A DNA stretch of 64,000 bases from an uncultured Eubacteriales bacterium (GTDB taxonomy: Bacteria > Bacillota > Clostridia > Lachnospirales > Lachnospiraceae). The DNA is taken from the NCBI GenBank assembly GCA_949283695.1, contig CASDTX010000025.1:372001-436000 (forward strand), in the 5' to 3' direction. The position numbers and the translations under genes are program-made. This document shows, piece after piece, positions 9,126-18,362 of this stretch (position 1 is the first letter of the stretch; each line of letters begins with the position of its first letter). The notes under the pieces were generated by a model, which saw only the letters and a program-made list of their open reading frames with translations, had not been told where the DNA came from and made no database searches.

Positions 9126-9168
9126 TGTAGCTTTTGATACAGAACTTATTTTTCCTGAAAGATATAAT
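9126..9168 (+). promoter_or_regulatory. Crp/Fnr-type operator and class II promoter for the enoate reductase/SDR operon
   Basis: A 16-bp dyad, TGTA-GCTTTTGA-TACA (9126-9141), lies upstream of TATAAT (9163-9168). No -35 hexamer is correctly spaced. With the start taken 7 bases after the -10 box (about 9175), the dyad centre is at -41.5, the classic activating position of Crp/Fnr proteins. The same arrangement occurs at 12849-12891. The rest of 8875-9125 shows only one weak copy of a dispersed repeat (9103-9125). Confidence 0.65.
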
Positions 9169-9197
9169 CATTAAAAAAGGAAATGGAGGAATACAGT

Positions 9198-11129
9198 ATG
9201 TGCGGGATATACGACCCATTATTTGAACCTGTCAAGATCGGTACGATGACGGTCAAGAATCGTATGATTGTGCCTTCGATGGTGACGAATTACTGCAGTC
9301 ACGACGGCACGGCCACAGAACGCTACCTTGCCTATCACCGGGCGAAAGCAGAAGGCGGCTGGGGACTGATCATTACGGAAGCGTATAAGGTCACTGAGAC
9401 TTGCGGCGGCTATTATAATATGGCAGGACTCTGGTCGGATGATCAGATAGAAAGTCACAAGAAGCTGACAGATACGGTACATGAAGCCGGAGGAAAGATC
9501 GTCTGTCAGCTGATACATGGCGGGCGGCAGGTTACGTCAGAACAGTCCGGTGTGCGGGGACTTGCCCCGTCCGCAGTAAAAGATCCGACAGCGGACGAAG
9601 TGCCGGAGGAAATGAGCCTGCGTGACATTGAAGACATTGAAAACAGCTTTGTCAATGCTGCCGTAAGAGCGAAGAAGGCCGGTTTCGACGGAGTGGAGAT
9701 CCACGCTGCTCACGGATATCTGATCAACGAATTTCTGTCGGCATTTTCTAATAAGCGATCCGACAACTACGGAGGAACGGTGAAGAACCGGGCACGTTTT
9801 ATGATCGAAATCATCGAGAAAACGCGTGCGGCAGCAGGCCCGGACTACCCCTTAATTCTGCGGCTGACGACAAACGAATACGTGGAAGGCGGAATTGATT
9901 TATACGAGAGCCGGATCTTTGCCAGAATGGCTGAACGGGCGGGCGTAAACGCGATCCATGCAACGCAGGGCGTTTACAAGAGTGCTCAGTACATTATACC
10001 GCCCTGCGCGGTGCCGTCAGGGAGGTTTCAGGATAACGCAGCGGCCATGAAATCTGCGGTAAACATCCCTGTGATTGCAGTGGGACGCATCAATACTCCG
10101 GAGACGGCACTGGATCTGATTGAGAGCGGGAAAGCAGATCTGGTGGCGATGGGACGGGCATCTATTGCAGATCCGGATTTGCCGAATAAGCTGAAAGAAG
10201 GACATGAGGAAGATATCTGCCGCTGCATCGGGTGCGTGCAGGGCTGCATCGGCGGAATTAACCGGGGAGAAAGTGTCGCCTGCATGGTGAATCCCAGAAC
10301 CGGGCGGGAGAATACCTATCCCTGGGTGAAAGCAGACCGGCCGAAGAAAGTCGTGGTAGCAGGGGCCGGAGTTGCCGGGATGGAAGCGGCACTTGCGGCG
10401 TCAAAGCGGGGCCATGAGGTTGTGATCTACGAGCAGAAGGACAGAGCAGGCGGCCAGTGGCTGTCCGCGGCTGTGCCTCCCGGAAAAGCAGAGTTTAACT
10501 CCTTTGTTGTATGGCAGAAGGAACAGCTGAGAAAGGCGGGCGTGCCCATCCATCTGTCGGCAGAATGCAGCGCGGAGATGATCCGGGAAGAACATGCGGA
10601 TGCGGTGATTATCGCGACAGGCGGCAGAACTGCCATACCGCCCATCCCCGGTCTGGGGGAGCGCGAATATGCGACGGTGACGGAGATCCTGTCAGGAGAG
10701 AAAGAGGCAAGGGGCAGTGTGGTTGTGATTGGCGGAGGTTTGGCAGGCGCAGAGACTGCGGAGCATCTGTCCTGCCATGGCCTGAAGGTCTCCCTGGTGG
10801 AGATGCTGCCAGAGATCGCAAGAGACGGAGAACCTACGGCCAACGGCTTTATGATGGAGAATCTTGCGAACAACCATGTGGACATTTATACAAGTGCCAC
10901 GGTCATGAGGGTTCAGCCGGATTGTGCAGAGATCAAGCTGACAGACGGAAGCAGCAAGTCTCTTCCGGCAGATACTTTGATCATAGCTACCGGTACACGC
11001 GCATGCCAGCCCTTCGGAGAGGAGTACGAAAGCCTGGCAGAAGAAGTTTATCTTGTCGGTGACGCGGCAGGCGCGAAGAATGGCCTGCGCAATATCGCGC
11101 AAGGGTTTGAGACTGGTTATCAGATATAG
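9198..11129 (+). CDS. old-yellow-enzyme family NADH:flavin oxidoreductase with C-terminal FAD domain (enoate/2,4-dienoyl-CoA reductase type)
   Basis: A 643-residue three-part flavoenzyme. Residues 1-330 form an FMN TIM barrel with HGG (about 107-109) and the substrate-contacting HAAHGYLINEFLS (from 169). A 4Fe-4S site follows as C-x2-C-x3-C-x11-C (343, 346, 350, 362). The C-terminal part is an FAD/NAD(P) domain with GAGVAG (about 389) and a second GGGLAG motif. This is the layout of FadH, BaiCD/BaiH and clostridial enoate reductases, which reduce or form C=C bonds next to a carbonyl. The start at 9198 is chosen because GGAGG lies 8 bases upstream. The ATG at 9183 overlaps that site. It heads an operon with an SDR. 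The substrate is unknown. Confidence 0.9.
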   Translation: MCGIYDPLFEPVKIGTMTVKNRMIVPSMVTNYCSHDGTATERYLAYHRAKAEGGWGLIITEAYKVTETCGGYYNMAGLWSDDQIESHKKLTDTVHEAGGKIVCQLIHGGRQVTSEQSGVRGLAPSAVKDPTADEVPEEMSLRDIEDIENSFVNAAVRAKKAGFDGVEIHAAHGYLINEFLSAFSNKRSDNYGGTVKNRARFMIEIIEKTRAAAGPDYPLILRLTTNEYVEGGIDLYESRIFARMAERAGVNAIHATQGVYKSAQYIIPPCAVPSGRFQDNAAAMKSAVNIPVIAVGRINTPETALDLIESGKADLVAMGRASIADPDLPNKLKEGHEEDICRCIGCVQGCIGGINRGESVACMVNPRTGRENTYPWVKADRPKKVVVAGAGVAGMEAALAASKRGHEVVIYEQKDRAGGQWLSAAVPPGKAEFNSFVVWQKEQLRKAGVPIHLSAECSAEMIREEHADAVIIATGGRTAIPPIPGLGEREYATVTEILSGEKEARGSVVVIGGGLAGAETAEHLSCHGLKVSLVEMLPEIARDGEPTANGFMMENLANNHVDIYTSATVMRVQPDCAEIKLTDGSSKSLPADTLIIATGTRACQPFGEEYESLAEEVYLVGDAAGAKNGLRNIAQGFETGYQI

Positions 11130-16871: not shown

Positions 16872-16904
16872 TTATATATCGCCACTGGCAGGAGGAATAA
16901 ATCA

Positions 16905-18362
16905 ATGAATACAAAGACGAATCGAGGAACGATGAACCCATTTCCGGAGAGATTTCTCTGGGGCGGCGCAGTTGCCGCAAACCAGTGCGAGGGAGCGGCC
17001 CGGGAGGATGGGAAAGGGCTGTCCACAGCGGACGCACTGACAGGCGGAGTCTTTGGGGAACCGCAGATTCCGCCGAGGGGCTTCTATCTGAAAAAAGAGG
17101 CAATCGATTTCTATCACAGATACCGGGAAGATGTTGCGCTCTTTCGGGAAATGGGGTTCCGGGTGCTGCGCATCTCTATCGCATGGGCCAGGATCTTTCC
17201 GAAGGGCGATGAGACGGAGCCGAACGAAGCAGGCCTTGCATTTTACGACCGTCTGATCGATGAACTGCTGGAGAGCGGAATCCAGCCCCTTGTGACTCTT
17301 TCCCACTATGAGATGCCGCTTCATCTGGCGGAAGCATACGGCGGATGGGCAGACAGACGGCTGATTGAGTACTTTCTTCGGTATGCGGATACGGTTATGC
17401 GGCGCTATAAAGGAAAGGTGAGATACTGGCTCACATTCAATGAGATCAATATGATTCTTCACGCACCCTTTAACGGGGGCGGGATCCGAGGTACCGCGGA
17501 AGAGACAGACAAGAACGTGCTGTATCAGGCGATCCATCACCAGCTGGTGGCAAGCGCTGCCGTGACTGCCCTGGGTCACGAGATTGATCCCGAGAACCAG
17601 ATCGGATGTATGATTGCGGGAAGCCCGATCTATCCGCTCACCTGCAGTCCGGACGATATGATCGAGGCCATGCAGAAAGACCGGCAGTCCCTGTTCTTCG
17701 GGGACGTTCATGCAAGAGGAACATACCCGGCTTATATGAAGCGTTATTTCGAGGAGAACGGGATCACTGTGAAATTTGAGGAAGAGGATGAACAGATTCT
17801 CAAAAACACTGTTGACTTCATCTCGTTCAGTTACTATATGAGTTACTGTGCCACTGCAGACGAGAAGAAAAACGTCCAGTCCAGAGGGAATATCATGAGC
17901 GCGGTGAAGAATCCCTATCTGAAAGAATCTGAGTGGGGCTGGCAGATCGATCCGAAAGGACTGCGCTATATTTTAAACCAGCTGTATGACCGCTATCAGC
18001 TTCCGCTTTTCATCGTGGAAAACGGACTGGGCGCAAACGACATCCTTACAGAGGACGGAAAGGGCGGCTTGACAGTGGAGGATGACTACCGGATCGATTA
18101 TATGAGAGAGCATCTGCTTCAGGCGGCGGAGGCAGTCCGCGACGGAGTGGAAGTTCTGGGATATACAGCCTGGGGCTGCATTGACCTTGTGAGCAACACT
18201 TCGAACCAGATGTCAAAGCGCTACGGTATGATCTATGTGGACCGCAATGACGACGGAAGCGGGACGTTCGAGCGGTATCGGAAGAAATCTTTCTACTGGT
18301 ACCGGGATGTGATCCACACAAACGGAGAGAGTTTGACTGAGGAAACGGCAGCGTCAAAATAG
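16905..18362 (+). CDS. 6-phospho-beta-glucosidase, GH1
   Basis: A 485-residue cytoplasmic GH1 enzyme that hydrolyses 6-phospho-beta-glucosides to glucose-6-phosphate and aglycone. The acid/base is Glu180 in TFNEIN and the nucleophile is Glu372 in IVENGLGA. The C-terminal Ser...Lys-Arg-Tyr segment ([14 protein letters not shown]) matches the phosphate-binding signature that separates phospho-glucosidases from plain glucosidases. AGGAGG lies 9 bases before the ATG. As the last gene of the reductase-PTS-glucosidase transcript, it should release the aglycone inside the cell, where the two flavoenzymes could act on it. Confidence 0.92.

Follow-up and report, generated by a model that had tools for sequence, protein, structure and literature searches.

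The best-described phosphotransferase system (PTS) with which the present locus can be compared is that of Lactobacillus acidophilus. Its plant-glucoside loci combine PTS EII and phospho-β-glucosidases, aryl glucosides enter by the PTS and are cleaved inside the cell to glucose-6-phosphate and an aglycone, and the aglycones are exported largely unmodified; as described there, the system ends at the aglycone (PMC5698550). Here, we analyzed a stretch of 64,000 nucleotides (the window) from an uncultured Eubacteriales bacterium of the Lachnospiraceae, in which the PTS and glycoside hydrolase family 1 (GH1) families of the classical bgl operon (BglG antiterminator, PTS IIBCA, GH1) stand together with two flavoenzymes, a short-chain dehydrogenase (SDR), and a Crp/Fnr-type regulator. 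An earlier note on this DNA had proposed that a β-glucoside is imported and cleaved and its aglycone reduced, an interpretation that our results partly support. We think it probable that the locus encodes a dedicated inducible pathway with PTS import, cleavage by a phospho-glucosidase, and reduction of the aglycone by a flavoenzyme. The form in which a plant compound reaches the host, be it the glucoside, the free aglycone, or a reduced product, is determined by gut bacteria, and a locus in which one switch governs import, cleavage, and reduction would, if this reading is true, help to predict reduced metabolites from genomes.

The six genes were found, by profile searches and the table of open reading frames (ORFs), at the positions and in the families given by the earlier note. 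They form two compact operons, Red1–SDR (9198-11914) and Red2–PTS–GH1 (12925-18362), which flank the Crp/Fnr gene. Red1 and Red2 are flavoenzymes of the old yellow enzyme (OYE) type, with flavin mononucleotide (FMN), iron-sulfur (Fe-S), and flavin adenine dinucleotide (FAD) parts. The features are as follows:

9125-9144, plus strand: operator TTGTAGCTTTTGATACAGAA, before Red1–SDR, centre at 9133.5.
9163-9168, plus strand: −10 box TATAAT, 29.5 bp from the operator centre (operator at −41.5).
9198-11129, plus strand: Red1, OYE-type FMN / Fe-S / FAD flavoenzyme (Oxidored_FMN and Pyr_redox_2), HAAHGY kept.
11147-11914, plus strand: SDR (adh_short).
11956-11982, plus strand: stem of 12 pairs resembling an intrinsic terminator (consensus scan), 3′ of the Red1–SDR operon.
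12054-12734, minus strand: Crp/Fnr-family regulator of 226 amino acids (cNMP_binding and HTH_Crp_2), the proposed activator of both operons.
12848-12867, plus strand: operator GTGTAGTTTTTGTTACAGAA, before Red2–PTS–GH1, centre at 12856.5.
12886-12891, plus strand: −10 box TATAAT, 29.5 bp from the operator centre.
12925-14889, plus strand: Red2, OYE-type FMN / Fe-S / FAD flavoenzyme (Oxidored_FMN and Pyr_redox_2), VMGGGGY in place of HxxHGY.
14910-16871, plus strand: β-glucoside PTS permease, EIIB-EIIC-EIIA.
16905-18362, plus strand: GH1 6-phospho-β-glucosidase, from profile and PDB matches.

The permease scored 691 bits with the β-glucoside model TIGR01995 (cut-off 615), and the GH1 protein 660 bits with the 6-phospho-β-glucosidase model NF007356 (cut-off 623); the top PDB matches of the latter are solved 6-phospho-β-glucosidases. 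Red1 most likely starts at 9198, where GGAGG lies upstream, and the mechanical ORF begins at 9183. The intergenic gaps in the ORF table are 17 bp (Red1–SDR), 20 bp (Red2–PTS), and 33 bp (PTS–GH1), and the consensus scan gave no plus-strand terminator in these three gaps. Over the 13 kb scanned, terminator-like stems were about as frequent as in shuffled sequence (11 vs. 10.7), so the terminator evidence is weak. Co-transcription within each operon is likely from this arrangement.

To find Red2 orthologues, the genomes of 84,980 species were scanned with six peptide patterns, a limit by which other orthologues may have been missed. The scan gave 29 relatives, four of them at 77-88% identity and the next at 38%. 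Beside Red2 in all four of these orthologous loci (L057, L058, L059, and L060; three of the four genomes are metagenome-assembled genomes, MAGs) stand genes for Crp (62-85%), PTS (58-80%), and GH1 (74-84%). Two gene orders occur among them. L057 has that of the window; L058, L059, and L060 carry the Crp gene on the opposite strand, between Red2 and PTS–GH1, and Red2 is therefore a unit of its own there. The synteny check proposed by the earlier note was thus borne out for the association of reductase, PTS, and GH1, with Crp added, and not for a common unit, which Red2 leaves in three of the four loci. Close orthologues are rare: one of 58 genomes of the genus, namely that of the window, and two of 299 in the family (the window and G148), with one of the two genomes in the genus of G148. 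We consider a predicted functional coupling of import, cleavage, and reduction to be well supported by this comparison.

Some further features of these loci were observed. The PTS frame of L059 stops before the EIIA part (486 amino acids), and L060 has an RpiR-type gene before PTS. A gene for a small TIGR04076 protein lies before PTS in L058 (3047-3388) and L059 (12827-13168) and after GH1 in L060 (17256-17597). One paper describes the family as possibly related to redox or iron clusters (PMC8667426); we rejected it as a core part, as it was not found in the window genome (79% complete). A weaker relative (34%) stands at L155:4340-4825 beside a Crp paralogue with 46% identity. At L059:8806-9872 (Ca. 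Ventrimonas merdavium), a duplicate of the operator and of a 5′ part of Red2 is followed by a Phd/YefM-like gene (below the Pfam cut-off), a PIN-domain gene, and the intact Red2 with its own operator.

The earlier note had also seen the same Crp/Fnr-type operator before both operons, with the regulator gene between them, and this reading stands. The palindrome TGTA-N8-TACA is present in both promoters, with its centre 29.5 bp 5′ of the first base of a perfect TATAAT. If the −10 hexamer covers −12 to −7, the operator lies at −41.5, which is the class II position of Crp/Fnr activators. The joint promoter pattern, which was derived from those two sites themselves, occurs twice in the window (0 expected), and the 2.9-Mb assembly as a whole contains the 19-base operator pattern exactly twice, the next-best sites having 2 mismatches. 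With up to 3 mismatches, the window genome had 24+17 matches (41) and the reversed control 19+12 (31); only the two exact sites stand out from this background, and we rejected a wider regulon in the window genome. Because the assembly is 79% complete, further operator targets could be missing.

The palindrome was found 5′ of Red2 in all five genomes, with exact half-sites in L057, L059, and L060 and one changed half-site base in L058; L059 keeps the half-sites and differs in the spacer between them. A −10-like hexamer is kept at the same offset in the four orthologous loci (5/6 in L057; 4/6 in L058, L059, and L060). That offset gave the best or tied-best −10 hexamer among 14 offsets in the five genomes, L060 being tied with two others. 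The looser pattern TGTA-N8-TACAGAA (up to 1 mismatch) gave 79 matches vs. 56 in the reversed control in G356, 12 vs. 13 in G357, 56 vs. 46 in G358, and 250 vs. 159 in G359 (Faecalicatena); the excess in G359 leaves room for a wider regulon there.

The Crp/Fnr protein matches DNR, CRP, and CprK in the PDB set. The Fnr oxygen sensor has an N-terminal Fe-S cysteine cluster, and the window protein has no cysteine before residue 79. It is plausible that both operons are driven by one dedicated regulator. In the mechanism we propose, the PTS permease would import a β-glucoside while phosphorylating glucose at C6, and GH1 would cleave the phosphorylated glucoside to glucose-6-phosphate and an aglycone. 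Red2 would then reduce the aglycone at FMN, with electrons delivered from a pyridine nucleotide via FAD and a [4Fe-4S] cluster, and Red1 with the SDR may further reduce enone and ketone or alcohol groups. The Crp/Fnr protein would sense a small molecule, for which the aglycone or a product close to it is the likeliest candidate, bind TGTA-N8-TACA at −41.5, and activate both operons. The genes, their arrangement in operons, the operator with its constant spacing, and the joint conservation of Red2, Crp, PTS, and GH1 are seen in the sequence, whereas the reaction order, the class of substrate, the part played by Red1–SDR, binding of the operator by the Crp protein, the inducer, and the benefit (an electron sink or detoxification) are inferred.

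Flavoenzyme and GH1 genes were compared for position in 58 genomes of the genus (81 flavoenzymes at E ≤ 1e-60 to Red2, and 84 GH1 at E ≤ 1e-100). The list of 81 is whole at that threshold, with only 21 first-look candidates scored in some genomes. A GH1 gene lay within 5 kb of 11 of the 81 flavoenzymes, in 11 genomes, and 1.02 pairs were expected under random placement. For five flavoenzymes, against 0.33 expected, the distance was at most 500 bp, the gaps being 17-39 bp. As a control for catabolic clustering, iron alcohol dehydrogenases (Fe-ADHs) were used; two of 150 (the best 150 of 369) were within 5 kb of a GH1 gene, and the cluster around one of the two also contains a flavoenzyme. The difference between flavoenzymes and Fe-ADHs gave a Fisher p of 0.0002, and of 0.003 after near-identical cases were merged to 8 groups. 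An SDR control set had 14 matches, 13 without the window's own. The pairing of flavoenzyme and GH1 recurs in the genus above chance, and the general plan is not unique to the window locus.

The paired loci differ in layout. In L160 the order is EIIA, PRD, PTS, OYE, and GH1, all in one direction, and L153 has OYE, EIIA, an antiterminator, PTS, and GH1. OYE is followed by GH1 and then by a ROK kinase in L151, L152, and L167 (the kinase was Pfam-tested in L151 and L167). L161 has Fe-ADH, OYE, and GH1; L159 has OYE, AraC, GH1, and ROK; and in L154 and L162 a PTS–GH1 pair is divergent from a regulator–OYE pair (MerR, tested in L154). A GH78 α-L-rhamnosidase at L151:827-3586, about 6 kb upstream of the OYE–GH1–ROK set, would fit rutinoside-type plant glycosides. 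At L165:6987-12384, OYE, PTS, and GH1 lie with a broken (frameshifted) Crp-like gene opposite. The GH1 gene there is truncated, and the flavoenzyme, which has an in-frame stop, is the closest relative of Red1 among the 85 rows compared (51%). This locus is telling because the closest Red1 relative occupies the plan of the Red2 operon. We read it as a decayed version of the plan; its genome belongs to the genus of the window and consists of one contig.

On a quick LG tree of 85 flavoenzymes, which carried long-branch warnings, the GH1-pairing label required at least 8 changes, 8 being the minimum of label changes, and several OYE clades were paired with GH1. Such a spread is expected if any ene-reductase suffices, as it would if the sugar were the food and the released aglycone (a quinone, enone, nitro compound, or similar) were harmful and neutralised by flavoenzymes of broad specificity. 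A Crp-type switch and broad-range enzymes of the OYE fold would fit that explanation. However, the conservation of Red2 (77-88%) beside unchanged neighbours points to a specific substrate, and we regard detoxification as unlikely, although it survives better than the other alternatives.

The best NCBIfam model for both Red1 and Red2 is BaiCD, and BilR is among the top three. We rejected Red1 as a BaiCD (570 bits vs. a cut-off of 825; Red2 scores 419) and both proteins as BilR (485 and 401 bits vs. 750). The HGDR motif of BilR (PMC10769871) occurs nowhere in Red1 or Red2. The alignment of Red2 with 2-naphthoyl-CoA reductase spans the full length of Red2, and that with FadH spans most of it; Red2 has 29-38% identity to 57 sequences outside its own clade (alignment A1). 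These, with the five sequences of the Red2 clade, made up the 62 used for the active-site comparison.

Both flavin domains are retained in Red2. The Fe-S cysteines C358, C361, C364, and C376 (Red2 numbering) are invariant in 62 of 62 sequences, and Tyr184 of Red2 aligns with Tyr166 of FadH and Tyr197 of 2-naphthoyl-CoA reductase, a position at which tyrosine is common (52/62). These tyrosines are the proton donors (PMC6502838, PMC10769871). Elsewhere Red2 departs from its relatives. Asp31 is found only in the five Red2 sequences of the 62 and replaces His26 of FadH; the roles of His26 (near flavin N5), Tyr197, and His284 are taken from PMC6502838. With Tyr184 and the Fe-S cysteines kept and the His-x-x-His pair altered, Red2 seems capable of transferring hydride to a C=C bond or one like it and probably holds its substrate in another way than its relatives. 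For Red2, which is without the His pair usual among its relatives, the enoate-type reduction proposed by the earlier note is unproven. Red1, in which HAAHGY is kept, is a better candidate than Red2 for an ordinary enone.

The loss of the His pair would also agree with a flavoenzyme that acts on something other than the aglycone, such as the still uncleaved phosphorylated glycoside or a co-induced, unrelated intermediate, and so would the separate transcription units of Red2 and PTS–GH1 in three orthologous loci. Nevertheless, the gene set stays together through rearrangement, other OYE types are co-directional with GH1, and we know of no flavoenzyme of the OYE fold that acts on sugar, all of which make this explanation distinctly improbable.

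Several results weigh against the aglycone-reducing pathway itself, which was drawn from sequence comparison. The first position of His-x-x-His, which is His in 56 of the 57 non-Red2 sequences and Gln in L062, is Met in all five Red2 sequences, and the second His is Gly in Red2. Red2 is outside the PTS–GH1 transcription unit in three of the four orthologous loci, and an operator of the palindrome type was not found before the separate PTS–GH1 units of L058-L060. In pairwise identity, PTS and GH1 track each other (r = 0.95) more than they track Red2 (0.52 and 0.59); Crp and Red2 gave 0.87, and comparisons across the pairs 0.42-0.59, in a weak test of 10 pairs from 5 taxa. In the genus-wide test, the eleven neighbour pairs include the window's own locus, and the Fe-ADH control covers a part of the matches (150 of 369); a further Fe-ADH beside OYE–GH1 in L161 is outside the 150, and the control count is therefore too low by one or more. 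Finally, Red1–SDR is not co-conserved with the Red2 set. We found no close Red1 relative in the four Red2-orthologue genomes, where the best match had 40% (these include three MAGs, and in L057 and L058 the contig ends near the set). The joining of both operons into one system by the earlier note is less well supported: only the shared operator, in one genome, links Red1–SDR to the other genes. Distant counterparts were observed at L080:9227-17873 (Enterococcus raffinosus), where genes for a GH1 (61%) and a PTS protein (39%) face, in convergent orientation, an SDR gene (32%) and a counterpart of Red1 divided over two half-length genes (34-35%).

An ordinary β-glucoside operon beside an unrelated reductase and regulator, co-carried by horizontal transfer, would agree with the patchy occurrence of the orthologues and with the partly separate variation of Crp–Red2 and PTS–GH1, but is very improbable given the palindrome and spacing common to five genomes, the gaps of 20 and 33 bp, the set retained when gene order changed, and the genus-wide enrichment with its control.

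A bolder extension of the dedicated pathway is that the pairing of flavoenzyme and GH1 marks a class of reductive aglycone modules that recurs in Lachnospiraceae, is undescribed, and evolved several times. On this view, Red2 would be the founder of an OYE subclade whose active-site chemistry is altered (Met-x-x-Gly for His-x-x-His; Asp beside flavin N5), and the plant aglycone that it reduces, of low potential and perhaps aromatic, would serve as a private electron sink that the Crp-type sensor reads directly. Taken whole, this is speculative and rather doubtful. For finding the substrate, the operator and the Crp protein offer a ready inducer screen.

Two genes for Mac-type O-acetyltransferases (window 8266-8874 and 18479-19120), on opposite strands and 38% identical, flank the region. 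We rejected them as parts of the system, as a search of L057-L060 for Mac homologues at E 1e-12 gave none (L057 is short).

Among open-licence PubMed Central (PMC) papers, no description of a PTS–GH1–OYE locus was found in the matches listed, which agrees with the statement of the earlier note that it knew of no described system with this exact layout; the general plan, as seen above, recurs in the genus. The terms sought gave nothing in the available part of a paper on a flavone reductase (PMC7862272), and that of another, on Catenibacillus, names a flavone reductase and an O-glycosidase and no PTS–GH1–OYE locus (PMC11170127).

Among the closest known systems, the gut OYE reductases BaiCD and BilR have the same build as Red1 and Red2, which score far below the curated cut-offs. 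FadH and 2-naphthoyl-CoA reductase have the same three-domain FMN / [4Fe-4S] / FAD build as Red2, and VMGGGGY of Red2 resembles VMGSEGY of FadH. His252 of FadH is an active-site residue; at this place, where the alignment is gapped, Red2 has Tyr/Asp, in contrast to His252 and His284 of the two enzymes, and no CoA gene is among the nine genes tested around Red2.

For the regulator, the nearest parallel is CprK, whose operator differs from the palindrome of the window. Both belong to the Crp family, and CprK, an effector-sensing activator of reductive metabolism, is offered as an analogy only, since its similarity to the window protein is weak (2h6b, E 1.2e-07). CprK is a Crp/Fnr regulator that binds o-chlorophenols (PMC2610375).

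The window also contains a classical BglG–PTS–GH1 operon (59297-63738), with no reductase among its genes and a PTS 40% identical to that at 14910. The locus studied here differs from the classical bgl operon in being led by a reductase and in having a Crp-type operator; no BglG/PRD antiterminator was found when nine genes at 7.4-19.1 kb were tested. It differs from the loci of L. acidophilus in that its operon is led by a flavoenzyme and its regulator is of the Crp/Fnr type.

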